From a virus, in IMG/VR virus record IMGVR_UViG_3300015199_000006, positions 1 to 40,795 of that record: 40,795 nt of DNA; one strand, 5' to 3'. Within the stretch, counting starts at the first letter, position 1. Every line of letters starts with the position of its first letter. Made by a program: the position numbers and the translations under genes. Shown piece after piece: positions 6,603 to 35,621 of the stretch. Under the pieces are notes generated by a model. That model was not told the DNA's origin. It did not search any database and saw only the letters and a list, made by a program, of their open reading frames with translations.

Positions 6603-6929
6603 ATGTCCGAAGCCTTCGAGAATTACGCCGCTGCTGCTTCCGCCTTCCGTCAGGCCGTTCGCACAATGCAGAGCATGGTCGACGTCGTCAGCAGCGGCGC
6701 TCCCAAGCTCGCCAAATGGCGCGAGATCGACCTGGGGACTCTCAAGGGTGACGCCGGTGCCGAACCGCGATTGAGTGTTTGGCCCAGCGGCGACCAACTC
6801 AAAGACGGAATCGAAGCCGTGCGCGTCGCGCGGCAAAAGCTGCAACAGGCCTTGGCGGCGATGCCCCAGGCGCAACTCTCCGTGATCAAGACCCCGGAGA
6901 CGATTGAAACTGAAGCGCTCGCGCGGTGA
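6603..6929 (+). CDS. Hypothetical helical protein (108 aa)
   Basis: The product begins MSEAFENYAAAASAFRQAVR and is largely alpha-helical, with a Trp-containing centre (LAKWREIDLG) and a C-terminal helix (VRVARQKLQQALAAMPQAQL). Codon use has high GC at third positions, as in its neighbours. Its last 44 bases overlap the 3' end of the convergent glycosyltransferase gene. No clear ribosome site was seen and no family was recognised; it belongs to the plus-strand cargo group. Confidence 0.6.
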   Translation: MSEAFENYAAAASAFRQAVRTMQSMVDVVSSGAPKLAKWREIDLGTLKGDAGAEPRLSVWPSGDQLKDGIEAVRVARQKLQQALAAMPQAQLSVIKTPETIETEALAR

Positions 6930-8658
6930 GAGTTGTCGTCTCGTCGACCATGTGACCGCAGGGAACTTCCGGCAAGAGCCAGACGCGGCCCCCGCGGCGT
7001 TTGATTTCCATACTCCAGGCCCAATCGTGCGCGGGGATCTTTTCGAAGTGGCTTTCCCATTCGGGAACCCGATCGCGCCAGTACATCAGGCAGCCTGTGC
7101 CGCACAGGTCGACGATCAACAGTGGATGCTGCGAATTCGTCGCCTGATTGAACGTCGGCTCGTGGGCCTCTTTGTCGCGCCACCAGCCGCCGACGATCCG
7201 GTCAGGAACGTGCCGATTGCGATACAGGCCGCTGACTGCCTCGGGAGGGCAGGCCGTCGAGGTGATGGCCGTAAACAGTTTTTCCGCCCCGTCGAGGGGG
7301 ACGAGGATGTCATCCTCGACGATCCAATGCAGGTCTCCCCGGAGCTCGCGCCGCAGGCGGTTGCAGCTCGCGGCCAGGAACTCGGCCACGCGATCGCGGC
7401 GCCCTTGTTCGGTCGCATAAATGAGCGCGTGACCGTGCGGCAGCACACGGATCGTGTCGAACGTTCCGGCGTGGCGTGCGCATTCGCGGGCGATGACGTC
7501 GCGAAACGTCAGGCTCTGGACGGCCGCCTGGTGATAGAGCAACACCAGGTCGACGGGCCACGGCGAGCGCAATTGCCGCACGCTACGGGCGAGCGCGTCG
7601 AGCCATTCCGCGAATTTGCCCGGTAAGCGGCCGCTCAAGATGCTGCCGACGCTGAGACGGGCCAGCCGGCGACGGACTTTTTCACGCGCGCATGCAGCCA
7701 CGGATTCGTCGTGCTCGTGATACAGATGCGAAAAGGAGGCCGCGTGCTGACGATACAGGAGCGGGACTTTCTGCTGTCGCTGCGGCCGGCCGAAACGCAG
7801 CGCGCGTAAGGCCAGGTCCCAGTCCCACATCGTGCCGATTCCGTCCTGCCAGCCCCCGGCCGCGTGGTAAGCCGCGCGCGAATACATGGCCGACGTGTGC
7901 ACGTAGTTGCACACCCACAGGCTGGTCTGCGGATCGTCCCACCAGGCTGCCGCCCAGAGGTGAGACGATTCACCGAAGGCCTGTGCGTCGCCGTAGACGT
8001 AGGGCGTGTCGGGGTCGGCGACGGCCAGCATGGCGGTCACGTAGTGCGGCGGCAGCACGTCGTCGGCATCGAGTGTGATGAACCAGTCACCGCGGGCGAC
8101 GGCAATCCCCCGCGCACGGGCGGCTGCCGGGCCCTGATGCACGGCGTGCTCGAGCACGATCAGACCGCGGTCGGCGTAGCGGCGCGCCACCGCGAGGGAA
8201 TCGTCCTGGCTGGCATCGTCGCTGTAGATTACTTCGCACGGCGGGGATTGCTTGAGTGCCGATTCGATTGCCTCGTGCAGAAAGCGGCCATAGTTTCTGC
8301 CGGCGATCACGATCGACACGGACGTCGAGCGTTTGGCCCACACGCGGTCGCGTGCGGCCTCGGTGGGCTGGGGGCGACGGAACTTCGATCGCAGGCGGGA
8401 CAGCCAGCCCGGCGATTCGAGGGGGATCCTGATGTCGATCCGCGGCGGGTCTCCCGGCCAGCGTCGTTCGGGGCAACGCATGTCGGGCGAGCGGGCGAGC
8501 ACCGTGCAGACCGGCGATGGGAAGGTCGAGCGCAGGCAGCTCTGGCCCTGTCGGGATGGGCACGTCTCGCAGATTTGCAGGCGGGTTTCGAAAAGTGCTT
8601 TCGGCGTGTCCGTGGGGCGCGGCTCGTAGCGCGCGGCGGCTTCTGCGGCATTCAGCAT
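6886..8658 (-). CDS. Double-domain glycosyltransferase with N-terminal Cys cluster
   Basis: The 590-residue product opens with a small Cys-rich segment (ICETCPSRQGQSC near residues 29-41, further Cys near 50 and 60). A family-2 glycosyltransferase domain follows at about 110-290, with SIVIAGRNYGRFLHEAIESA, SDDASQDDS and the metal/nucleotide DADD motif (FITLDADDVLP). A second transferase-like domain lies at about 370-590, with IVEDDILVP and a late HDWAWSMEIKRRGG segment like the acceptor-side motifs of GT-A enzymes. It probably transfers sugars from nucleotide donors to a surface glycan or virion protein. It lies beyond the last tail gene and convergent with the cargo genes, which fits receptor modification. 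Target unknown. Confidence 0.85.
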   Translation of the reverse strand: MLNAAEAAARYEPRPTDTPKALFETRLQICETCPSRQGQSCLRSTFPSPVCTVLARSPDMRCPERRWPGDPPRIDIRIPLESPGWLSRLRSKFRRPQPTEAARDRVWAKRSTSVSIVIAGRNYGRFLHEAIESALKQSPPCEVIYSDDASQDDSLAVARRYADRGLIVLEHAVHQGPAAARARGIAVARGDWFITLDADDVLPPHYVTAMLAVADPDTPYVYGDAQAFGESSHLWAAAWWDDPQTSLWVCNYVHTSAMYSRAAYHAAGGWQDGIGTMWDWDLALRALRFGRPQRQQKVPLLYRQHAASFSHLYHEHDESVAACAREKVRRRLARLSVGSILSGRLPGKFAEWLDALARSVRQLRSPWPVDLVLLYHQAAVQSLTFRDVIARECARHAGTFDTIRVLPHGHALIYATEQGRRDRVAEFLAASCNRLRRELRGDLHWIVEDDILVPLDGAEKLFTAITSTACPPEAVSGLYRNRHVPDRIVGGWWRDKEAHEPTFNQATNSQHPLLIVDLCGTGCLMYWRDRVPEWESHFEKIPAHDWAWSMEIKRRGGRVWLLPEVPCGHMVDETTTLTARALQFQSSPGS

Positions 8659-21096: not shown

Positions 21097-22071
21097 TTAC
21101 TGCTGACGCAAGAGCTGCATGTCGAGCATGTCCAGGCGGGCGCTGTCGCCGGGGCTGGCGTTGTTCCACTTGCCGGTGATTTTGAACAGCTCGGCGATCG
21201 TCGTGTCGAGGTTCGTCGCGCCGATGTACCAGGGCTTGCTGGTGGCGGCTCCTGCCGTCCCCCAGCCTTGTGTCCCCGAGGAGACGATCAACCCCGCGCC
21301 GGCGTTCCCCAGCGCTCGCACGACGATGTCGCCGTCGAACTGGAAAATGTCATTGATGGTCGGGTTCTGCACGGCCGAGGCGAACAGGTTCACGCCCCCC
21401 ATGTAGCCCTTGATCTGGAATGTGTCGGCCCCGTTGACTGCCGTCACGATCCCCTGGCAGAAGAAGTGAATCACGTCGCCCACTTGCAGCCGGTTGGCCG
21501 GGAAGTTGGCGCTGCCCAGCGTCGTCTCGACGACGGTGTTGGTGAGGGCGGCGCTGGCGGCCGGCAGCACGTAATACGTGTCGGCCGTGGTCTGCGAATC
21601 GAGAATCACATAGACCGTCGCGTCGCCGGTCAACTGGGCGAACAGGGCCTTCCCCATGAAGGGCCCCTTGGTGGGATCGCTGGTGGCCACCAGGGCGACC
21701 AGGTCCCAATACACGCGCTGGAACGCGAAAAACGTGGAGGCGTCTTTGGTGGTCTGAAAGATGCCGCGCGCGGCCAGCGCCCCTTTGCGCAGCGGAGCAA
21801 TGTCAGCGGGGTTGACCATCGGCGTGTCGTTCTGCACGACGACCTGGCCGGCATTGACCGTGTTCACGGCGCTGGGATTGGTGTAATCGATCTGGTCGCC
21901 GAAGGCGAAGAAATTCGCGGGGCCGGTGACTATTCCGAACGCGGCGAACCCGGCCAGGTGGCCCCAGTTCTGCAGATCTGTCAACAGCGGCACATCGTGC
22001 ACGCAGGCATGGATCACGATCGCGACGAACGCGACGGCCAACAGCGTCGCCAATTTGATACAGGCTTTCAT
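21097..22071 (-). CDS. Capsid decoration (DUF2190-like) protein with hydrophobic N-terminus (324 aa)
   Basis: AAAGGAAC precedes the ATG at 22071. Residues 1-25 form a hydrophobic, signal- or lipoprotein-like segment (MKACIKLATLLAVAFVAIVI, then a Cys at 23), unusual beside a capsid gene. Residues about 75-160 show the DUF2190 cement-protein pattern: VVVQNDTPMVNPADIAPLRK, then GIFQTTKDAS, VYWDLVAL, then GKALFAQLTGDATVYVIL. The C-terminal ~165 residues are further beta strands. It directly follows the major capsid domain. The decoration role is likely; the purpose of the N-terminal hydrophobic segment is unknown. Confidence 0.6.
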   Translation of the reverse strand: MKACIKLATLLAVAFVAIVIHACVHDVPLLTDLQNWGHLAGFAAFGIVTGPANFFAFGDQIDYTNPSAVNTVNAGQVVVQNDTPMVNPADIAPLRKGALAARGIFQTTKDASTFFAFQRVYWDLVALVATSDPTKGPFMGKALFAQLTGDATVYVILDSQTTADTYYVLPAASAALTNTVVETTLGSANFPANRLQVGDVIHFFCQGIVTAVNGADTFQIKGYMGGVNLFASAVQNPTINDIFQFDGDIVVRALGNAGAGLIVSSGTQGWGTAGAATSKPWYIGATNLDTTIAELFKITGKWNNASPGDSARLDMLDMQLLRQQ

Positions 22072-22168: not shown

Positions 22169-25100
22169 TCAGGTCCCGACGGCGAAGACGCCGGCGCGCC
22201 AGTCGACGGCACCGACGCCGAAGTCGAAGAAGCAGCGCCAACGGAAGCCCAGGATGTCCATGTCGGTTTGCCCCTGGTCGATCGTGGGGGTGCGTTGGCC
22301 GCGCAGGTAACCGACCGAAATCATGGGGACGTCGGCCGGGTCGGCGAGCAGGTACCAACCGGTGGCGCTGTTGTTGGCCAGGATGCCGTTCGACAGGTAG
22401 GGCGACTGCACGGGTCGGTATTTACCGCCGTGGGGGTTCGACTGGGGCACGACTTTTCCGGCCGCCGTCGATGTCCCCAGCAAGGTGATGATGTTCGTAT
22501 CCTTGAAGAGCTGGTCGGCCAGGATCTTGTTCTCGGGGCTGACGAGCAGCGCGGCCGGCGAGAGGACGATCGGCTTGCCCTGGGCGTCGGTCTGTTTGAG
22601 AAACAAAACCAAGGCGTTCGTCAGGGCGGGGATCGAGAGGGCGTTGCCCGACCCGGCCGCCAGGTAGTTATTGTGCGGCGCGCTGAAGAAGGCGTTGCCG
22701 TCCGGCTGGTTGGCATTGGCCAACAGCAGCGTAAAGACCGCTTCCTCGACCGCCAGGGCCGATTGGCGACCCAACAGCCGCGGCAATTGCAGCAGCGCGT
22801 CGAGATCGTCGTTGATCAGCATCTGGCGATTGAGCGTGATCAGCGTGCCATACGTGTCGAGCTGGTTCGTCCAGCTTTCGTCGTTGAACGTGGTCGACTT
22901 CAGCTCGCCCGTCGCGCCCACTTTCTGGATCGTGCCGGCCATCGACAAGCGGTAGCGGGTCGCCACCTTGAAGTCGTTGAGGTCCTGCCCGCCGCAGAAG
23001 TCTTCGCTGGCGGTCGGGACCGCCAGGAACGACACGAGCAGCGACTTATTGAGCAGGTTCGACAGGATGCCGCTCAAGCTGGCGGTCGAGAAACCCCCCG
23101 CGCCGTCGGCGGCCTGGATGTCGTTCTGGCTCATCCGCAGGGCCGCGCGAATGGTTTCGTCTCCCAAACGGCCGGGGCTGACGTGGTGGCCCCGGGCCAT
23201 CAGGTATTCCTGGGTGAGGCGCGTCAGCGTGTACGAGCGGTTGTCACGTTCGCAGGCGGCGTTGATGATGTCGGGGGTGTACCGCCGCTTGTCGATCTTT
23301 TCGAGCTTGTCCTCGGCGACGCCGGAGGCCATCAGCATCGAGCACTCGACCACGGCCGAGTATTCGGGCGCGCCGCTTTCGCGGCCGCTGGTCAACGGGC
23401 CGGCATAGACTCCGGCCGGCCGGCTGGCGCGCAGCACCTCGAGCTCGACCTTCTCGGCCGACCAGTTCATCTCGATCGCCTTGGCGGCCAGCTCGACGTT
23501 CTTTCCGCAGGCGGCCTGAATGGCATGCACCCGGCGGATCTCCTGGGCCGCGTTCTTGCGGACGAACTGGCGGGCCTGGACGGCCAGCCTCTGGTTGCGG
23601 GCATGGATGGCCACTTTCTTCTCCTTCTTGCGCTGTGCGCGGAGCGACGTGGCCGACTTTGCGGCGGCGGCCTTCGTCTTTCGGGGTGGGTCGGTCTCTT
23701 CGTCGTCTTCTTCCTCTTCTTCCTCGTTGGCCTCGGTGCGCGGGTTTTCTTCGTCGTCGTCACCGGCTTCGGTCCGCGGGTTGTTGTCCTGGTCGTCCTC
23801 CTCCTCGCGCTCGGCGGACTCATCGTTCTCGTCGACGTGGGCCTGCGTGGCGGCCTGCTTGGATTGCCATTCGTTCATCAGCGACTGCTTTTGCTGTTCG
23901 CTGAGCGTCGACACATCGAAACCCATCGAGCGGACCCATTCTTCGTATCCCACGGCAGCGTCTCCTGGTGATTGCGCAGCGCGCAGGCGTTTGCCGGCAG
24001 CGGCCGCTAGTTCGGCCGACGTGGTGCTGTCGGCTCCAAGCGAGAGGATGGAAATTTCACGCAGACGCACGCCATAGGCCGCTTCCACGGGCCCGGCGAA
24101 CGTCTGGCCGTTGAGTGTGACTTCTTCCCCTTCGGGGATGATGTCGATGTGTTCGGCGCGGCCCCCGACGCTGGCCTGCCAGGGGTATTTGCGCTGGGCG
24201 GCCGTTACGACCTTGTCGCGCTCGGGAGAGGCGCCCGAGAAAAAGCCCTGCGGCACAGTGATGCCGCCGGCGTCGATCACGACCTGGTCGGTGTGGCCCA
24301 GCTCACGCTCGGGGTCGTGCTCGTAGAGAATGGGGGTCTTGGGGCTGGCGCAGACGCACGTCGCCAGGTCGATCACGACCGGGTATTCGTGGCCGTCCAG
24401 ACGCATCGCCCCGCCGTTGTAGGCGACCATCCGGAATTTCGGCACCGCGTTGGGCTCGGCTTTGGGGTCGCTGGCAATCAACTTCAAATTGGCGGACGAT
24501 GTGGCGCCCGAGATCTCGAGGGAGTCGGCGCGCGGCGCGGCGGCGGAGATCGTTGTCGAGCGGGCGGCTGAGGCAGTCGCTGCCTTGCCTGGCCGCGGAG
24601 GACCGGGTCGTCGCGGAGCGTCGTCGCGGTTTTCTTCGGTCTGCGGTTGGTCGGGCGCCTGGTCGGGCTGCTTGTCACCCTTGAAAATCTTGTCGAACAT
24701 CGCCTTGCGGACTTCGTCCTCACTGACGCCAAAGTATTCGGCGTTCTCGCGGATGACGTTGCCCCCGGTGTTGGCCTTCTTCTGCGCGTCGGTAATGGAA
24801 ATCAGGCCCGCTTCGACGGCCGAGCTGGCGGCGTCGGTTTCCTTGACCGGGTCGACGCTGATCGGCGGCGGCCAGTGGATTTCGGTTCGGACGCGGGCGA
24901 TCGCCTCGCGCGAGAACTCCAGCACGAGCCGCGCCTCGGCCAGAAAGTCGTTCAGGATTCGTATGAGCACCTTGTGATTGATCCGGTTGCAGCGGTCGAT
25001 GTCGATCGCGGAAAACCAGGTTTGGTGATCCATGCGGCTCGACGAATAGCTGTAGCCCTGGCTCGAGCAGGTGGCGATGTTGAGCGGCATGCTGATGCAG

Positions 25101-26116
25101 CGGCACAGCAGCGTGATCACCATCTCGCAGAACTCTTTGAAGCTCTGCGTGGGTTGCTTGGGGTCGAGCTGCTCGATCGAGTAGCCGTCCGGCAGCATGG
25201 TCACCAGGTTGCGTTGAATCTCCAGCGTGAGCCAGGCGTCGGCCGACGTGCTCGCGCCGGTCGTATCGGCGATCGGCGGGCCGTTGGATTTGATAAAAGC
25301 AGCGAAGGAGGCTGCCACCTCGGCCGCCGAACAGGTGGCCAGGATGTAACGCCGCAACACGGCGAGCAGCTCGAACGCGGCCTGCAGCTCGGGGACGCCG
25401 CGCCCCTGGCCCGGCCGTTCCTGGCGGTAATAGTGAATCACGAATTTCGCGTCGACTTTGTGTTGCTGTGGCCAGACGATGGGCAGCACGTCGTTGGGGC
25501 GCTGAGTCACGATCTGGTAGCTGACGGGGTTCCACTGCGGGTCATACGTGATGCCGTCGACCTGCCAGGGGGTCCACTGCGGGCGCAGCGATGTGACGTA
25601 ATCTCCCTCGAGCAGTTGATAGTCGAGCTGGATCCGCGACTTGAGCGCCGGGTTGCCGATCGTGAGCAGAAAGCACTCCCCGTCGCGGACTTGAGTCTCC
25701 TTCATCGTCCACAGCTTCTGGTCCAGACCGATCGCGGCGGTCCATTCGGTCCAAAGCTCGTCCAGGCGCGCGTTGAGGTGCGGATCGGGGCCCAGCCACT
25801 GCACGCGCGGCCCGCTGCCGATCGTATGATCGGCGACGGTGCGGATGATCCCCTGGTAGAGGGGATTCGAGCCCGCTTCGTAGCGCGAGCGATTCCGCAT
25901 CACGCGGCGGATGCCTTGCGTCTGGCTGGCATTGGGGCTGAGCGCGTCGGCCGCTGCCCAGTGTTTTTGGTTATGCCGGTTCGTCTGCGCGCTGTCGTAA
26001 CTGGCCGCGATTGTCGCGGCGGCTTGCGAGACGTCTGCTCGGGCGCGCCATTCGGGGGCCAGTTTGCCGGCCAGCCAATTGCGCAGTTTCGCCAGGGGTT
26101 TTCCCGTGGTGGCCAT
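22169..26116 (-). CDS. Portal - prohead protease - scaffold - major capsid fusion (1315 aa)
   Basis: One uninterrupted frame holds four head functions. Residues 1-475 are a lambda-family portal (YEAGSNPLYQGIIRTVADHT; KFVIHYYRQERPGQGRGVPE; SYSSSRMDHQTWFSAI). Residues about 555-700 match a herpesvirus-assemblin/HK97-type prohead protease, with likely catalytic His600 in ILYEHDPERELG and Ser649 in YPWQASVGGR. Residues about 715-870 are helical, with a very acidic block (762-808) followed by basic helices, as in scaffolds. Residues about 985-1315 are a Mu gpT-like HK97-fold capsid protein (LDTYGTLITLNRQMLINDDL; LPRLLGRQSALAVEEAVF). The ATG overlaps the previous stop (TGATG). Protease-capsid fusions are known; adding the portal is unusual. 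No convincing internal ribosome site was seen. Confidence 0.88.
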   Translation of the reverse strand: MATTGKPLAKLRNWLAGKLAPEWRARADVSQAAATIAASYDSAQTNRHNQKHWAAADALSPNASQTQGIRRVMRNRSRYEAGSNPLYQGIIRTVADHTIGSGPRVQWLGPDPHLNARLDELWTEWTAAIGLDQKLWTMKETQVRDGECFLLTIGNPALKSRIQLDYQLLEGDYVTSLRPQWTPWQVDGITYDPQWNPVSYQIVTQRPNDVLPIVWPQQHKVDAKFVIHYYRQERPGQGRGVPELQAAFELLAVLRRYILATCSAAEVAASFAAFIKSNGPPIADTTGASTSADAWLTLEIQRNLVTMLPDGYSIEQLDPKQPTQSFKEFCEMVITLLCRCISMPLNIATCSSQGYSYSSSRMDHQTWFSAIDIDRCNRINHKVLIRILNDFLAEARLVLEFSREAIARVRTEIHWPPPISVDPVKETDAASSAVEAGLISITDAQKKANTGGNVIRENAEYFGVSEDEVRKAMFDKIFKGDKQPDQAPDQPQTEENRDDAPRRPGPPRPGKAATASAARSTTISAAAPRADSLEISGATSSANLKLIASDPKAEPNAVPKFRMVAYNGGAMRLDGHEYPVVIDLATCVCASPKTPILYEHDPERELGHTDQVVIDAGGITVPQGFFSGASPERDKVVTAAQRKYPWQASVGGRAEHIDIIPEGEEVTLNGQTFAGPVEAAYGVRLREISILSLGADSTTSAELAAAAGKRLRAAQSPGDAAVGYEEWVRSMGFDVSTLSEQQKQSLMNEWQSKQAATQAHVDENDESAEREEEDDQDNNPRTEAGDDDEENPRTEANEEEEEEDDEETDPPRKTKAAAAKSATSLRAQRKKEKKVAIHARNQRLAVQARQFVRKNAAQEIRRVHAIQAACGKNVELAAKAIEMNWSAEKVELEVLRASRPAGVYAGPLTSGRESGAPEYSAVVECSMLMASGVAEDKLEKIDKRRYTPDIINAACERDNRSYTLTRLTQEYLMARGHHVSPGRLGDETIRAALRMSQNDIQAADGAGGFSTASLSGILSNLLNKSLLVSFLAVPTASEDFCGGQDLNDFKVATRYRLSMAGTIQKVGATGELKSTTFNDESWTNQLDTYGTLITLNRQMLINDDLDALLQLPRLLGRQSALAVEEAVFTLLLANANQPDGNAFFSAPHNNYLAAGSGNALSIPALTNALVLFLKQTDAQGKPIVLSPAALLVSPENKILADQLFKDTNIITLLGTSTAAGKVVPQSNPHGGKYRPVQSPYLSNGILANNSATGWYLLADPADVPMISVGYLRGQRTPTIDQGQTDMDILGFRWRCFFDFGVGAVDWRAGVFAVGT

Positions 26117-26452: not shown

Positions 26453-26704
26453 TTATAGTCCGAACACGTGCAGCAGCCGGTCGAGCAGGCTTTGTCGCTG
26501 CTTGGGGCTGAGGTCTTCGAGGCTGACCGGGAGCGGGTCGCCGGCGGCCGCTTCGTAGGTCACCACGTGGCGCCCGCAGTGGCGGCACTCGCGGACCCGC
26601 ATCACGCGGCCGCCGGCGGCCTGGCGAGTCTTCACCACGTAGAAATGTCCGCAACCGCAGTTCCGGCAGCGGATTCCTTTCTCGGACTTTTCAGCCATGG
26701 TCAC
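26453..26704 (-). CDS. Zinc-ribbon protein (83 aa)
   Basis: GTG 26704 overlaps the terminase stop (GTGA) and has GGGAGGG at good spacing; ATG 26698 is an alternative. The product has two CxxC pairs, CRNCGCGHFYVV and RECRHCGRHVVTYEAA, spaced like an NrdR/Ogr-type zinc ribbon, then a short helical tail (SPKQRQSLLDRLLHVFGL). It may bind DNA or be a structural zinc protein. Co-translation with the large terminase suggests a packaging-linked or late-regulator role. Confidence 0.75.
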   Translation of the reverse strand: MTMAEKSEKGIRCRNCGCGHFYVVKTRQAAGGRVMRVRECRHCGRHVVTYEAAAGDPLPVSLEDLSPKQRQSLLDRLLHVFGL

Positions 26705-29124
26705 ATCGCCCTCCCGGCAATCATGTGGTCAGGGATCGTGCTTTTCTTCGCCGTCTCTTTGGGACGGTTCTCGCCCAGCCGGCAGCCCTGCAGCGACCCG
26801 GCTGCGTACGAGCCGACCAGGCAGTCGAGCAAATGATTGTCCTGGCCAGGCCGCTGACTCCAGACCCACACGGTACGCCCGCGCCCGAACGTTTTTTCCG
26901 GTGACTCGGCCTTCAGGTGATCGTCGAGCATCTTATGCCGTTCCTTCGATTCGCCAAACGCTGACAGCGAACCAGGACCCAGCGTCGCCAGCCGGCGGGC
27001 GATGAACGTCTTCCAAAAGTAGGGGTCGAATTTTAGCAGGCGTACGGCGCGGCGCGTGGGGTCGGTCGTCACGATCGTGTGGAACCCGGGCCGCTCATGC
27101 GGTTTGATGTCCCATTCGGTCATCGGCCGCTTTTGGCACGCGACCGATTCCCCTTTGGAGGGCATCACGATCGCGCCATATGCCGAGCGCCGGCACCATT
27201 CGTAAATTGTGTCGGTCCACGTTCCCCCCGAGTCGACGAGGAACCGTTCGATCCGCAACAGGGTGTTATCTTCCCGCGGCCAGCTCTTGTTGATGATGCG
27301 TTCCGACAGGAGATCGAGCCCGTGCCAGATGGCCGCTTCCTGGCTCCCTTTCTTCTCGACTCCCTGCTTCTGCGCCGCTTCGAGGTCCTGCTGCAGAGTC
27401 CGGGGCACCTCGCGCAGGGTAAAGTACTCGCGCGGTTGTTCGGGCTGCGTGCCGTAATCGATCACGGCGGCCGTGAAGTCGTCAGCCAGGGCGAGCACGA
27501 GGTAATACAGGACTTTCCCCTGCACGTCGCAGAAGCCCACCAGGCGATTGGCCCAGATCGGCGCCATACCTCGCGCCAGACGGTTGATTCGTTCGGGAAT
27601 CCCGGCCAGGCGCGGGGCGTCTTCGTCGGCCTCGCTGTCGCGCGGTTCCCCCTGACACTCGGCCGCAAACACGTCCGCCCCATCGTCGATCAGCAGGTTG
27701 TACGCGTGCTGGATCCCGGAGATCTCCGATTCCGGGTCGAAGCAATGATCCCACGACACCTGGCAACCGGCGTCCATCGCTTCGCGGTTCGCGCGGTAAT
27801 ACTCGGTCGCCTCGGCATGGGCCCGGGCCTGGTCGTCTGGATCGTCGATGTCGTACGACTGGCGGAGCTTGGCGTAGGGCCCCATCCAATGCGTTTCGTG
27901 CGCGTCGGCCCACTTCCGCACCATTTTGATCCGCACGCGCTGAAACGACCGGTTGCGTTTGCCGTCGGTTAGCTCATCCATCATGTCGTCTTTTTGGATG
28001 ATCGTCCCGTTGACCACGCAGGCCAGCTTCTTCTGGTGGCCGGCCAGCTTGAGAATCACCTTCCGTAGCACAGACAGCCGCTTCTTGACCCGCGCCGGCT
28101 TCTCGGCGCTTTCATCGGTCTGAGGGTCATCGACCAGCACCAGGTCCGGGCGGCTCGCCGTGCCGTCGCTGCGTTTGTGCTTCATGCCGCGGCTGGCCGC
28201 CATCAGGCCGTTGGCCACGATGATCGCGCTGGAGGCCAGCGAACCGGCGATCGTCGGCAGCACGATCTTCTTGGCGGTCCATACAATGTGCGTCAATTCC
28301 CCTTCGCACGTCTGCGACTTGCATCGCTGAGGCTTGCCCTCCAGCGCCCGGATCGCCTGTGTCACCTCGGGGAAGTCTTCATCGAGCAGGTCGTTCGTCT
28401 CCAGCTCGCTCTTGATCGATTCAATGTTCTCTTTCGAAAGCGTGCCCGTAGCCCCGAACAGGGCCACGAAGCCGCGGTGCCCATACAACACGGCATAGAT
28501 GGCCGTATTCTCGGTGATTGTCGTTTTGGCGAATCCCCGGTACACGGCGTCCGCCAGGCGGCCGCCATGCAGCACGATGTTCTGCAGATAAGCGATCAGC
28601 GCCTTGTGATCGTCGGAGAGCGGGTTCTTTCCCGAGCTATGCGGGAAGTAGGTCACCAGGAATTTTTCCAGGTTCAGCCGGCACGCCTCGCGCCGCTTCG
28701 GGTTCGCGACGGGGTGGATCGCGCCGATGTCGGCTGACTCGGCCGTCTTGCCGCGGCTGTAGCGGGCCTGCTTCGAGAGAGGGACATGGCCATGGGCCGG
28801 CGTCGAGGGGGTCGCGGGTTTTGGCAAGTGGCGCTGGTCGAACAACCAGCCGACGTAACGGAAGAAGTCGATCGACTTCCCGTCGCCGATCCGGAAGCCG
28901 GCCAGCTCCCGATGTCGATCGAGCTGGCGCTGTGTGACGACGGGGCCCAGCGGGCTGGAGTTGAGCAACCGGACGATTTCGCCGGGCTTTAATTTTCGCG
29001 GGTCGAATCCCTGCATTAAGGCGTTTGCCTCCCAGGAGGCGACGGCCGCGCTGATCACACTGGCCCCACTTGAAACGCTTGAGGGGGGCGCAGCCGGACG
29101 CCGATCCGTTTTCTTTGCCGGCAT
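26701..29124 (-). CDS. Large terminase subunit (807 aa)
   Basis: The motor ATPase domain carries a Walker-A-like loop (YRGFAKTTITENT, about residues 195-207) and a Walker B with catalytic acids (RPDLVLVDDPQTDES, about 325-339). The nuclease domain starts near residue 540 (NRLVGFCDVQGKVLYYLVLA), with a later GGTWTDTIYEWCRR segment. The protein is longer than usual because of a ~140-residue N-terminal extension containing a helical, DNA-binding-like part (VVTQRQLDRHRELAGFRI). It packages phage DNA into the procapsid through the portal. It follows a small gene that may be the small subunit. Confidence 0.9.
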   Translation of the reverse strand: MPAKKTDRRPAAPPSSVSSGASVISAAVASWEANALMQGFDPRKLKPGEIVRLLNSSPLGPVVTQRQLDRHRELAGFRIGDGKSIDFFRYVGWLFDQRHLPKPATPSTPAHGHVPLSKQARYSRGKTAESADIGAIHPVANPKRREACRLNLEKFLVTYFPHSSGKNPLSDDHKALIAYLQNIVLHGGRLADAVYRGFAKTTITENTAIYAVLYGHRGFVALFGATGTLSKENIESIKSELETNDLLDEDFPEVTQAIRALEGKPQRCKSQTCEGELTHIVWTAKKIVLPTIAGSLASSAIIVANGLMAASRGMKHKRSDGTASRPDLVLVDDPQTDESAEKPARVKKRLSVLRKVILKLAGHQKKLACVVNGTIIQKDDMMDELTDGKRNRSFQRVRIKMVRKWADAHETHWMGPYAKLRQSYDIDDPDDQARAHAEATEYYRANREAMDAGCQVSWDHCFDPESEISGIQHAYNLLIDDGADVFAAECQGEPRDSEADEDAPRLAGIPERINRLARGMAPIWANRLVGFCDVQGKVLYYLVLALADDFTAAVIDYGTQPEQPREYFTLREVPRTLQQDLEAAQKQGVEKKGSQEAAIWHGLDLLSERIINKSWPREDNTLLRIERFLVDSGGTWTDTIYEWCRRSAYGAIVMPSKGESVACQKRPMTEWDIKPHERPGFHTIVTTDPTRRAVRLLKFDPYFWKTFIARRLATLGPGSLSAFGESKERHKMLDDHLKAESPEKTFGRGRTVWVWSQRPGQDNHLLDCLVGSYAAGSLQGCRLGENRPKETAKKSTIPDHMIAGRAM

Positions 29125-29184: not shown

Positions 29185-29376
29185 CTATTTCGCTTCACGC
29201 ACGAGCCAGGCCGCGGCCGCGATGAGGTCGACGGTGCCGTCGGCATTTGCCGGCAGGCCCGCGTCGACATCGGCGGCCAGGGCCTCGGCGGTTGCCAGCT
29301 TGGCTCCCGCTTCTGACAACAGGGCGGCCATGTCCTTGCGGGAGAGCGCCCGCAGCGACAGCCGGCCGCCGGTCAC
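29185..29376 (-). CDS. Possible small terminase-like protein (63 aa)
   Basis: The GTG at 29376 overlaps the stop of the methyltransferase (GTGA), which fixes this start. The short product contains LSRKDMAALLSEAGAKLATA, a helix-turn-like segment, and a GLPANADGTVDLIAAAAWLV motif resembling the end of Nu1-type small terminase modules. A small terminase recognises the packaging site and would be expected directly ahead of the large subunit. At 63 residues it is much shorter than full Nu1 (~180), so the call is tentative. Confidence 0.5.
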   Translation of the reverse strand: MTGGRLSLRALSRKDMAALLSEAGAKLATAEALAADVDAGLPANADGTVDLIAAAAWLVREAK

Positions 29377-30833
29377 CTTTTCGCCTCGCGCCTCGCCTTC
29401 TTTCCCGTCAGGTTTTCCCACCGCTGGACGATCACGTCGCAATACAGCGGGTCGAGCTCGAGCAGGTGCGCGCGGCGGTCGTTTTGTTCCGCCCCGATCA
29501 GCGTGCTGCCGCTTCCCCCGAACAGGTCCAGCACGTTTTCCCCGGGCTTGCTGCTGTACCGCATCGCCCGCGCCGCGAGCTCGACCGGCTTTTCGGTCAG
29601 GTGTACCGTCTTTTGATTGCTGACTTTCTTTACCGACCAGACGTCGGTTGTGTTGTTTGCGCCGAATAGTGTCACCCCCCTCTCGTCGATCTTGACCATG
29701 GGCATACCGCCCGAAACCGGCGGCAGGACGTCGACGCGTGAACCGTCGGCTGATTCGAGCCGCACGCCTCGGTCGATCGACTTACCGTCAACGGCGGGTT
29801 TCGCTGGCGAGACGTGCCACGCATCGGTCAGGTTGTGCGGGCCGAAGAAACGATGTGCCGCGCCTTCCTTCCATCCGTAGAAGCACCATTCGTGGTTGCC
29901 CATGAAGTCTTTGCGCGTGAGCACCGGCGCCTCTTTGATCCAGATGATCGCCTGCGAAAAGTACAGACCGGCCGTGGACAATGCCACTGGATAGTTGGCG
30001 CAGTTCGCATAGCCGCCCCACACGTAGAACGCCCCGCCTGGTACCAGCACGCCGGCGGCGTTCTTGAACCAGGCCCCGAGCATTCGCTCGAACTCGGCCG
30101 GCTTGAGGAAATCGTTCATCAACGGCCGGTCTTTGGCGCGCATCTTCGACGTCGTCGCCCTGGCCTCGGGCTTGCGGGCCAGGTCGAGCTGCTGATGATG
30201 AGTCTTCTTCCCCGCGGCCCTGAGCGCGTTGTGCGATCTCGGTTCCACATTGACGTTGTATGGCGGGTCGGTGTTGAACAGATGGATCTTGCGACCCGCC
30301 GTCACCCTGGCGACGTCGGCCGCCTCGGCGCTGTTGCCGCACAGCAACCGGTGCTCGCCGAGGATCCAGAGATCTCCCGGCGTGGTCGTCGCCTTGTCGG
30401 GCGGCGCGGGGACGTCATCCAAACCGGCCGGGGTCTCGATGCGCGCGAGGATCATCATCAGCTCGCGATCGTCGAATCCCAACAGCGCGACATCGAGCCC
30501 GCTCTTTTGCACGCTCGCGATCTCGTCCGACAGCAGCTCGAAATTCCACGTCGCCAGTTCGTGCAGTTTGTTGTCGGCGATGCGGTACGCCTTGACCTGC
30601 GCTGGCGTGAGCTCACGCGCGACGTGCACCGGTATCTTCTCGAGGTCCAGAGACTTGGCCGCCAGCCAACGCACGTGGCCGACGATGATCACGCCCTTCG
30701 CGTCGACGACGACCGGTTGTCGCATGCCGAATTCGCGGATCGACGCCGCCACTGGCGCGATGGCCTTCTCGTTGATGCGCGGGTTGTTGGCGTACGGTTT
30801 GATCGAATCGATTCGCCGTAGTTCAATCTTCAT
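29373..30833 (-). CDS. ParB-like / DNA methyltransferase fusion (486 aa)
   Basis: The start MKIELRRIDSIKPYANNPRI at 30833 begins a ParB/Srx-type domain (about residues 1-105) with VVVDAKGVIIVGHVRWLAAK. The methyltransferase follows, with catalytic DPPY (189-192, NTDPPYNVN) before the SAM-binding FGGSGST (438-444), the motif order of beta-class amino-methyltransferases (N6-adenine or N4-cytosine). ParB-methyltransferase fusions are common in phages and probably protect DNA from host restriction or mark packaging sites. No partner restriction enzyme is encoded nearby. It lies just ahead of the terminase genes. Confidence 0.9.
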   Translation of the reverse strand: MKIELRRIDSIKPYANNPRINEKAIAPVAASIREFGMRQPVVVDAKGVIIVGHVRWLAAKSLDLEKIPVHVARELTPAQVKAYRIADNKLHELATWNFELLSDEIASVQKSGLDVALLGFDDRELMMILARIETPAGLDDVPAPPDKATTTPGDLWILGEHRLLCGNSAEAADVARVTAGRKIHLFNTDPPYNVNVEPRSHNALRAAGKKTHHQQLDLARKPEARATTSKMRAKDRPLMNDFLKPAEFERMLGAWFKNAAGVLVPGGAFYVWGGYANCANYPVALSTAGLYFSQAIIWIKEAPVLTRKDFMGNHEWCFYGWKEGAAHRFFGPHNLTDAWHVSPAKPAVDGKSIDRGVRLESADGSRVDVLPPVSGGMPMVKIDERGVTLFGANNTTDVWSVKKVSNQKTVHLTEKPVELAARAMRYSSKPGENVLDLFGGSGSTLIGAEQNDRRAHLLELDPLYCDVIVQRWENLTGKKARREAKR

Positions 30834-30943
30834 CGGAAATTTCCCACGGCCGGTAAAGAGAGTTGCATAATGTAGCTGTTCCCGCTGGGGCACCGCGAAA
30901 AAAGGCGGCGGAAGGACCCGTGAAAAACCGCGGGGATAGCAAG

Positions 30944-30994
30944 CGGGGCCAGGTGGCCCCGGGTGGGGGCCGCCGCGCGGGGCGCGCGGCGGCC
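30944..30994 (-). terminator. Tandem hairpins between lysis and packaging modules
   Basis: A perfect 12-bp stem GGCCGCCGCGCG (30968-30979) / CGCGCGGCGGCC (30983-30994) with a GGG loop lies nine bases after the stop at 31004 (minus). It is followed by a second 7-bp hairpin (30944-30961) and then, still on the minus strand, GCGGTTTTTC. The T-run is some distance away, so termination may be partial. Confidence 0.6.
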
Positions 30995-31003
30995 TGCGAG
31001 GGA

Positions 31004-31231
31004 TCAAGCAGCGGGGGCGTTTACCTTGAGGCCGAGCGCCGCGCCGGCGGCATTGGCCTGGTCGAGCGCAGTTTGAAGTTCGGCAAGATCGGTGTTGGCC
31101 TGCGTCGCTTTGGTCTCGGCATCATTGGCCGAAGTGACGGCCGCGGCGTTGCTCGCGGCAGCGGTGTCGGCCGAGGCCTTCAGCGCACCAAGGGAATTGT
31201 CGAACGCGGTGAGCTTGCTGGGATCAACCAT
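31004..31231 (-). CDS. Ala-rich coiled-coil protein (75 aa)
   Basis: The start MVDPSKLTAFDNSLGALKAS at 31231 has GGAG eight bases upstream; an earlier in-frame Met at 31267 is less well supported. The product is almost entirely a small-residue helix with heptad-like pattern (AAASNAAAVTSANDAETKAT; QANTDLAELQTALDQANAAG). No signal or membrane segment is seen. It may be a structural coiled coil at the end of the lysis/envelope cassette. Function unknown. Confidence 0.7.
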   Translation of the reverse strand: MVDPSKLTAFDNSLGALKASADTAAASNAAAVTSANDAETKATQANTDLAELQTALDQANAAGAALGLKVNAPAA

Positions 31232-34892: not shown

Positions 34893-35621
34893 TCAGACGG
34901 AAAATTCATCGCGCCGGCCGCGCAACCGCTCCCGCAGGAAATCCAGAATGATGGCGTGCATCTGCGAGATGCGGCTTTCGGACAGGCCGAGCGTCAGACC
35001 GATCTCCTTCATCGACAGCCCTTCGTAGTAATACAGGATGATCAGCAGCCGTTCGTTCTGATTCAGCCCCTGCGTGATCAGGCCCAACAGGTGCGATTTC
35101 TGCAGGCGCGTCTCCGGCGGCCGGCCGGCCTGATCCGGGATCAAATCGCGCAAGACGACCTGCCGCTGGCTCTGGGTGTCATACTGACGCAGCTCGAGGG
35201 GAGTCTTCTGCGCATTCACGACCGCCCGCCAGCTCTTGCGGAATTCGTCGCTGGATAAACCCAGCCGCTCCGCGATCTCTTCGTCCGTCGGCTGCCGGCC
35301 CAGCTCGTCGCACGCCTCGGCGCGGGCCTGACGGTAGTTCTTTTCCCGCGTGCGGTCTTTGCGGCTGAGCGCGTCGTCGGCCCGCAGGCTGTCGAGCATC
35401 TTCCCGCGGATCCGCGGCAGGGCGTAGGTCGCGAGCTGGTTCCCGCGGTCGGGATCGAAGGCGGCGATCGCTTCGACCAGGCCCAGGATTCCCTCCGAGA
35501 TCAGGTCTGCCACCAGCGGCCCGCCCGGCGGCAGCCGCTCGGCGATCCGGTAAGCGCAATGCCTCACCAGCTCGAGGTGCTGTTCGATAAGTGCGTTGCG
35601 TTCGGCAATCGTGCATTCCAT
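34893..35621 (-). CDS. Sigma-70 family factor, FliA/WhiG class (242 aa)
   Basis: Regions 2 to 4 are visible. Region 2 (about residues 37-80) reads DLISEGILGLVEAIAAFDPD and FATYALPRIRG-like text (QLATYALPRIRGKMLDSLRA). A region 3 helix pair follows (DELGRQPTDEEIAERLGLSS), and region 4 has a helix-turn-helix (LSMKEIGLTLGLSESRISQM). Region 1 is absent, as in FliA, WhiG and SigF. Such factors direct RNA polymerase to a separate promoter set. In this phage it probably turns on the lysis and structural operon that follows directly. The ATG is preceded by CCAGG with no clear Shine-Dalgarno. Confidence 0.93.
   Translation of the reverse strand: MECTIAERNALIEQHLELVRHCAYRIAERLPPGGPLVADLISEGILGLVEAIAAFDPDRGNQLATYALPRIRGKMLDSLRADDALSRKDRTREKNYRQARAEACDELGRQPTDEEIAERLGLSSDEFRKSWRAVVNAQKTPLELRQYDTQSQRQVVLRDLIPDQAGRPPETRLQKSHLLGLITQGLNQNERLLIILYYYEGLSMKEIGLTLGLSESRISQMHAIILDFLRERLRGRRDEFSV

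Follow-up and report, generated by a model that had tools for sequence, protein, structure and literature searches.

The locus at positions 22169 to 26116 very probably holds two nested genes that share a reading frame, such that a full portal–protease–scaffold–capsid polyprotein and a separately initiated 594-aa scaffold–capsid protein would be made from the same DNA. It lies on a 40,795-base virus record of metagenomic origin (the window, i.e., the whole stretch analyzed), and the relatives of the window phage suggest that phages of its type occur elsewhere mainly in Planctomycetes. Strict 1:1 synthesis of portal and capsid would pose a stoichiometry problem, as the first-pass annotation of this DNA had pointed out and as we agree. 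Given a conserved internal start with a Shine-Dalgarno motif, the synthesis of capsid need not be tied 1:1 to that of portal. From the sequence, the problem is most likely solved by a known type of device, the nested in-frame gene, as in lambda C/Nu3 and herpesvirus UL26/UL26.5.

Four head domains in one frame

A single uninterrupted ORF of 1,315 aa (P0001) runs on the minus strand from an ATG at 26116, which shares bases with the stop of the preceding ORF (TGATG), to a stop ending at 22169. The coordinates previously given for it proved exact; the strand had not been stated. Along this frame a λ-type portal, an assemblin-like prohead protease, a helical scaffold, and an HK97-fold capsid follow one another, and the open frame together with Pfam, PHROG, and AlphaFold domain assignments bears out the earlier claim that all four are joined. 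The lambda-type portal part occupies about residues 1 to 485 (24662 to 26116, minus strand), as judged from PF05136, phrog_21, and alignment with the stand-alone portals of relatives, and its core (aa 57 to 364) matched Phage_portal_2 (PF05136) with an E value of 5.6e-46 and 157.8 bits against a cut-off of 32.9. A Pro/Ala/acidic linker then leads to the protease (about residues 486 to 555; 24452 to 24661, minus strand). In relatives the portal stop and protease start overlap here, and no start codon with a Shine-Dalgarno motif was found within the linker.

The prohead protease domain (about residues 559 to 706; 23999 to 24442, minus strand) was assigned from phrog_3244, the residues His600, Ser649, and Glu687, and AlphaFold modeling, and is closed by a family motif, G-A-D (aa 694 to 696). 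Across an alignment of 44 relatives, His600 and Ser649 were invariant and Glu687 near-invariant, and the AlphaFold model based on this alignment reached a pLDDT of 84. Its best PDB matches were herpesvirus assemblins, at modest TM-scores of about 0.4; the modeled assemblin-like fold and the conserved Ser and His together point to an assemblin/S78-type protease. The window protease domain had no Pfam match, and Peptidase_S78 was matched by 13 of the 44 relatives. PHROG searches returned a head maturation protease at aa 593 to 836, plus protease/MCP-fusion families, and the NCBIfam prohead protease/MCP fusion model NF045541 scored 257 bits over aa 593 to 1311, below its cut-off of 525 bits.

AlphaFold modeling of the C-terminal 594 aa gave a helical scaffold part followed by an HK97-fold capsid. 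The scaffold (delta-like) domain covers about residues 722 to 985 (23162 to 23953, minus strand), and the confident helical fold starts at the first residues of the 594-aa product, with a pLDDT of 96 to 97 over the first 30. The major capsid domain (aa 1003 to 1310; 22187 to 23110, minus strand) matched Phage_capsid_4 (PF25209; E 3e-38, 133 bits against a cut-off of 27), and the PDB fold matches of its model were HK97-fold capsids, with E values down to 3e-9.

The surroundings of the fused ORF, as identified by Pfam and PHROG, are those of a normal head operon. A GpA-type terminase large subunit gene (26701 to 29124, minus strand; PF20454, E 2.6e-22; phrog_38) lies upstream, and a decoration (cement) protein gene (21097 to 22071, minus strand; PF09956, E 9.1e-9; phrog_122), with the Shine-Dalgarno motif AAGGA at its start, and head–tail joining proteins lie downstream. 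Beside the terminase, a ParB N-terminal domain is fused to an N6/N4 DNA methyltransferase (29373 to 31007, minus strand; PF02195, PF01555; phrog_498). The phage also encodes a complete sigma-70 factor with regions 2, 3, and 4 (34893 to 35621, minus strand) and, within the tail/late region, a family 2 glycosyltransferase (6886 to 8658, minus strand).

Distribution and origin of the portal fusion

We classified 260 loci with three profiles and report counts after the removal of duplicates. Among the nonredundant loci, 193 carried a portal gene followed by a protease–capsid frame, 7 carried a protease–capsid frame on a contig lacking the portal, 3 were triple fusions (the window, L010, and L200), and a few had split or broken frames; the portal is thus joined to the protease–capsid frame in 3 of about 203 loci. 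L010, an IMG/VR contig, keeps the domain order within a single frame of 1,264 aa that is 54% identical to the window protein over its whole length, with open junctions, and so supplies, together with L200, the same triple fusion elsewhere that the first-pass annotation had proposed to look for. In six more distant relatives, portal and protease–capsid occupy two frames that overlap or adjoin. Of two scans of genome contigs for close relatives, one returned none and the other 80 loci, nearly all of this two-gene form. Among the matches listed from 197 genomes of one planctomycete order, with scoring limited to three candidates in each genome, there was no additional open triple fusion, and no record in the phage and plasmid collections matched at least 80% of the 1,315-aa protein in one place.

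An assembly or sequencing error that deleted a stop between portal and protease could in principle have produced the fusion, and an error hiding a stop between 24500 and 24700 had been named beforehand as what would undo it. Portal and protease frames are out of phase, and usually overlapping, in 185 of 193 relatives, where a single indel error could fuse them. However, the window and L010 are different contigs that share the open junction at 54% identity, and it is unlikely that both independently acquired an error at this place; the fusion is therefore not a sequencing error in the stretch in question, and an artefact of this kind is extremely improbable overall. In trees the window and L010 were sisters (support 0.997 to 1.0) and L200 was placed elsewhere, hence the portal was fused at least twice. 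The remaining eight two-gene loci have both frames in the same phase, so that some need only lose a stop to fuse. Two loci, L104 and L112, have same-phase frames with a stop codon between them, a possible intermediate to the triple fusion. In L239, L090, and L169 the frame is broken within the capsid domain, likely through frameshifts or in decayed prophages.

An internal start after the protease

The earlier reading that the frame holds no clear internal ribosome site was mistaken. On the minus strand, AGGAG (23962 to 23966) stands 8 nt upstream of a GTG at codon 722 (23951 to 23953), the predicted start of the 594-aa scaffold–capsid protein, and this element (23951 to 23966) falls exactly on the protease/scaffold boundary and is conserved in the family. 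The start is GTG rather than ATG in the window, and in the protease–capsid alignment Val722 was aligned with an ATG-encoded Met in 7 of the 7 nearest relatives used; in the nearest, L010, only a weak AAGG precedes the internal start. Within the window ORF alone the site was not significant: matches of 5 nt or more accompanied 3 in-frame starts, against 3.5 in synonymous shuffles. The argument therefore draws on comparison across the family.

In 191 of 203 nonredundant protease–capsid frames, a Shine-Dalgarno match of 4 nt or more accompanied an in-frame start located 4 to 75 codons after the protease, mostly 16 to 25 codons past the GAD motif, compared with 8 to 35% in windows elsewhere in the same frames; the relatives share ancestry, so these and the following family counts are not independent tests. 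With starts restricted to ATG, the count was 177 of 203 against 1 to 18% elsewhere, and 12 of the 203 frames had no match of at least 4 nt to the motif assumed for the host. When codons were redrawn synonymously, with the protein kept, 141 ± 5 frames had a match of at least 4 nt (maximum 159 in 50 draws, against 191 observed) and 110 ± 5 had one of at least 5 nt (against 159 observed). As the observed counts exceed the redraws, the nucleotides themselves appear to be selected. Choosing the first ATG blind to any Shine-Dalgarno motif likewise gave a sharp GAGGA-like peak at positions −12 to −8, with A in 85% at −11 and G in 83% at −10, and RNA structure at this ATG was weaker than the frame mean in 89%, being 5 kcal/mol weaker than the frame average.

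Natural splits fall at the same boundary. In L224, a stop parts the protease from the capsid frame, and the capsid start overlaps the protease stop as ATGA (MTFEEWLQAKGF); in L005 and L009, protease and capsid are separate, with the capsid start behind AGGAGG, and the isolated phage FP_Epona is split in the same way. Among the head genes of the window (minus strand), Shine-Dalgarno motifs precede the internal capsid start (23953) and the decoration start (22071) and are absent from the portal (26116) and terminase (29124) starts, a pattern that fits high versus low copy numbers; the motif is missing at the start of many genes of this phage. An in-frame internal start after the protease and a shared 3' end are what the nested genes of lambda C/Nu3 and UL26/UL26.5 have in common, and by sequence the locus would qualify as one on both counts.

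Copy number and the portal–protease link

Initiation at ATG 26116, coupled to termination of the preceding ORF, would yield a low-abundance portal–protease–scaffold–capsid polyprotein, while independent initiation at GTG 23953 behind AGGAG would yield an abundant 594-aa scaffold–capsid protein. In the procapsid, fused subunits, each with a copy of the protease, would then make up about one portal ring inside a shell of scaffold–capsid subunits, and the protease would subsequently free itself from the portal by cutting and remove the scaffold. Internal initiation had been among the solutions offered at the outset, and the family-conserved start with its Shine-Dalgarno motif after the protease favors it. 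It is very unlikely that the locus instead encodes a true polyprotein whose four parts all arise 1:1 and are then separated by the internal protease, with surplus portal discarded. The single open frame, with the protease domain between portal and capsid, would suit such a scheme, but dozens of portals would be wasted per head, and neither the conserved start and Shine-Dalgarno motif nor the natural splits at that boundary would be explained.

How far the portal is bound to the protease depends on the other junction. We sought a separate protease start with a Shine-Dalgarno motif at the portal/protease junction; it was present in L200, as an AGGAG-led ATG just before the protease, and was not convincing in the window or L010. 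The L200 fusion may thus matter little, and in the window and L010 the protease is probably made attached to the portal. Each completed portal of these two should then carry the protease, plus scaffold and capsid if translation continues and the chain stays whole, and the fused subunits may assemble into the portal ring and deliver the protease to the procapsid. A stronger version, in which the portal of this lineage exists only as a portal–protease(–scaffold–capsid) fusion, each portal subunit brings in about one covalently attached protease, and full-length molecules join the ring to the earliest capsid subunits, is a possibility that we put forward tentatively. If true, a single molecule would couple nucleation with maturation and with the dosage of the protease. 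Less likely than not is the view that portal, protease, and scaffold–capsid each have their own start, such that the long frame merely lacks stops and no fusion protein matters. The L200 start is consistent with it, as is the protease start of relatives, which typically overlaps the portal stop (median 14 nt), and internal starts without a Shine-Dalgarno motif are possible, since many genes of the window phage begin without one. Yet the window and L010 lack a position-conserved Shine-Dalgarno start at this junction, and, with no stop in between, ribosomes making portal must read on into the protease.

Relation to known head gene arrangements

In lambda, the C/Nu3 protease–scaffold frame contains a nested scaffold start. 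The product proposed here is similarly in-frame, 3'-coterminal, and begins after the protease; however, the lambda nested product is scaffold only, with capsid protein E and portal B encoded by separate genes, whereas here it comprises scaffold plus capsid. The herpesvirus UL26/UL26.5 pair (PMC4498786) also joins an assemblin-fold protease to an in-frame scaffold and contains a nested, 3'-coterminal scaffold gene, but UL26.5 has its own promoter, where we propose a ribosome start, and the frame includes neither capsid nor portal. HK97 (PMC10275583) has the same gene order, and its scaffold is the N-terminal domain of the capsid protein; unlike in the window, portal, protease gp4, and capsid gp5 are three separate genes.

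Closest in layout are Pseudomonas phage MD8 and its relatives, in which protease, scaffold, and capsid form a single gene (PMC8508860), and the NCBIfam families NF045541 and NF045540, named 'prohead protease/major capsid protein fusion protein'. As in the window, these fusions place all three in one frame right after the portal, with a homologous capsid domain, and hence the protease–scaffold–capsid fusion is not new. In contrast to the window, the MD8-type portal is a separate gene and the MD8 protease was modeled on ClpP rather than being assemblin/S78-like. The MD8 paper is silent on any internal start, with the word 'internal' occurring 0 times in its text. A literature search, mostly of papers outside subscription, retrieved neither a portal–protease–capsid fusion nor a family-wide internal scaffold–capsid start. 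What is new is the joining of the portal to the protease–scaffold–capsid frame and, as far as could be found, the family-conserved internal start for a predicted scaffold–capsid product.

The nested reading gives a testable account of how phages with a 'protease–capsid fusion' could supply capsid protein by the hundreds while avoiding equal numbers of protease. The rarer portal fusion provides a natural case in which to examine whether a portal can act as carrier of the maturation protease, a question that work on head assembly has yet to answer. Outside the planctomycete group, protease–capsid 'fusion proteins' annotated in isolated phages and one plasmid record (L280, L281, L282, L285, L002, and L004) also have an in-frame ATG with a Shine-Dalgarno motif near codons 176 to 226, as is often the case for annotated fusions of isolated phages and plasmid records. 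Internal starts are predicted, for example, at codon 215 in Rhodobacter phage RcKemmy and at codon 207 in Stenotrophomonas phage S1. The nested start may therefore be general for protease–capsid fusions; that such a fusion is probably a nested gene would alter the reading of many proteins annotated in this way.
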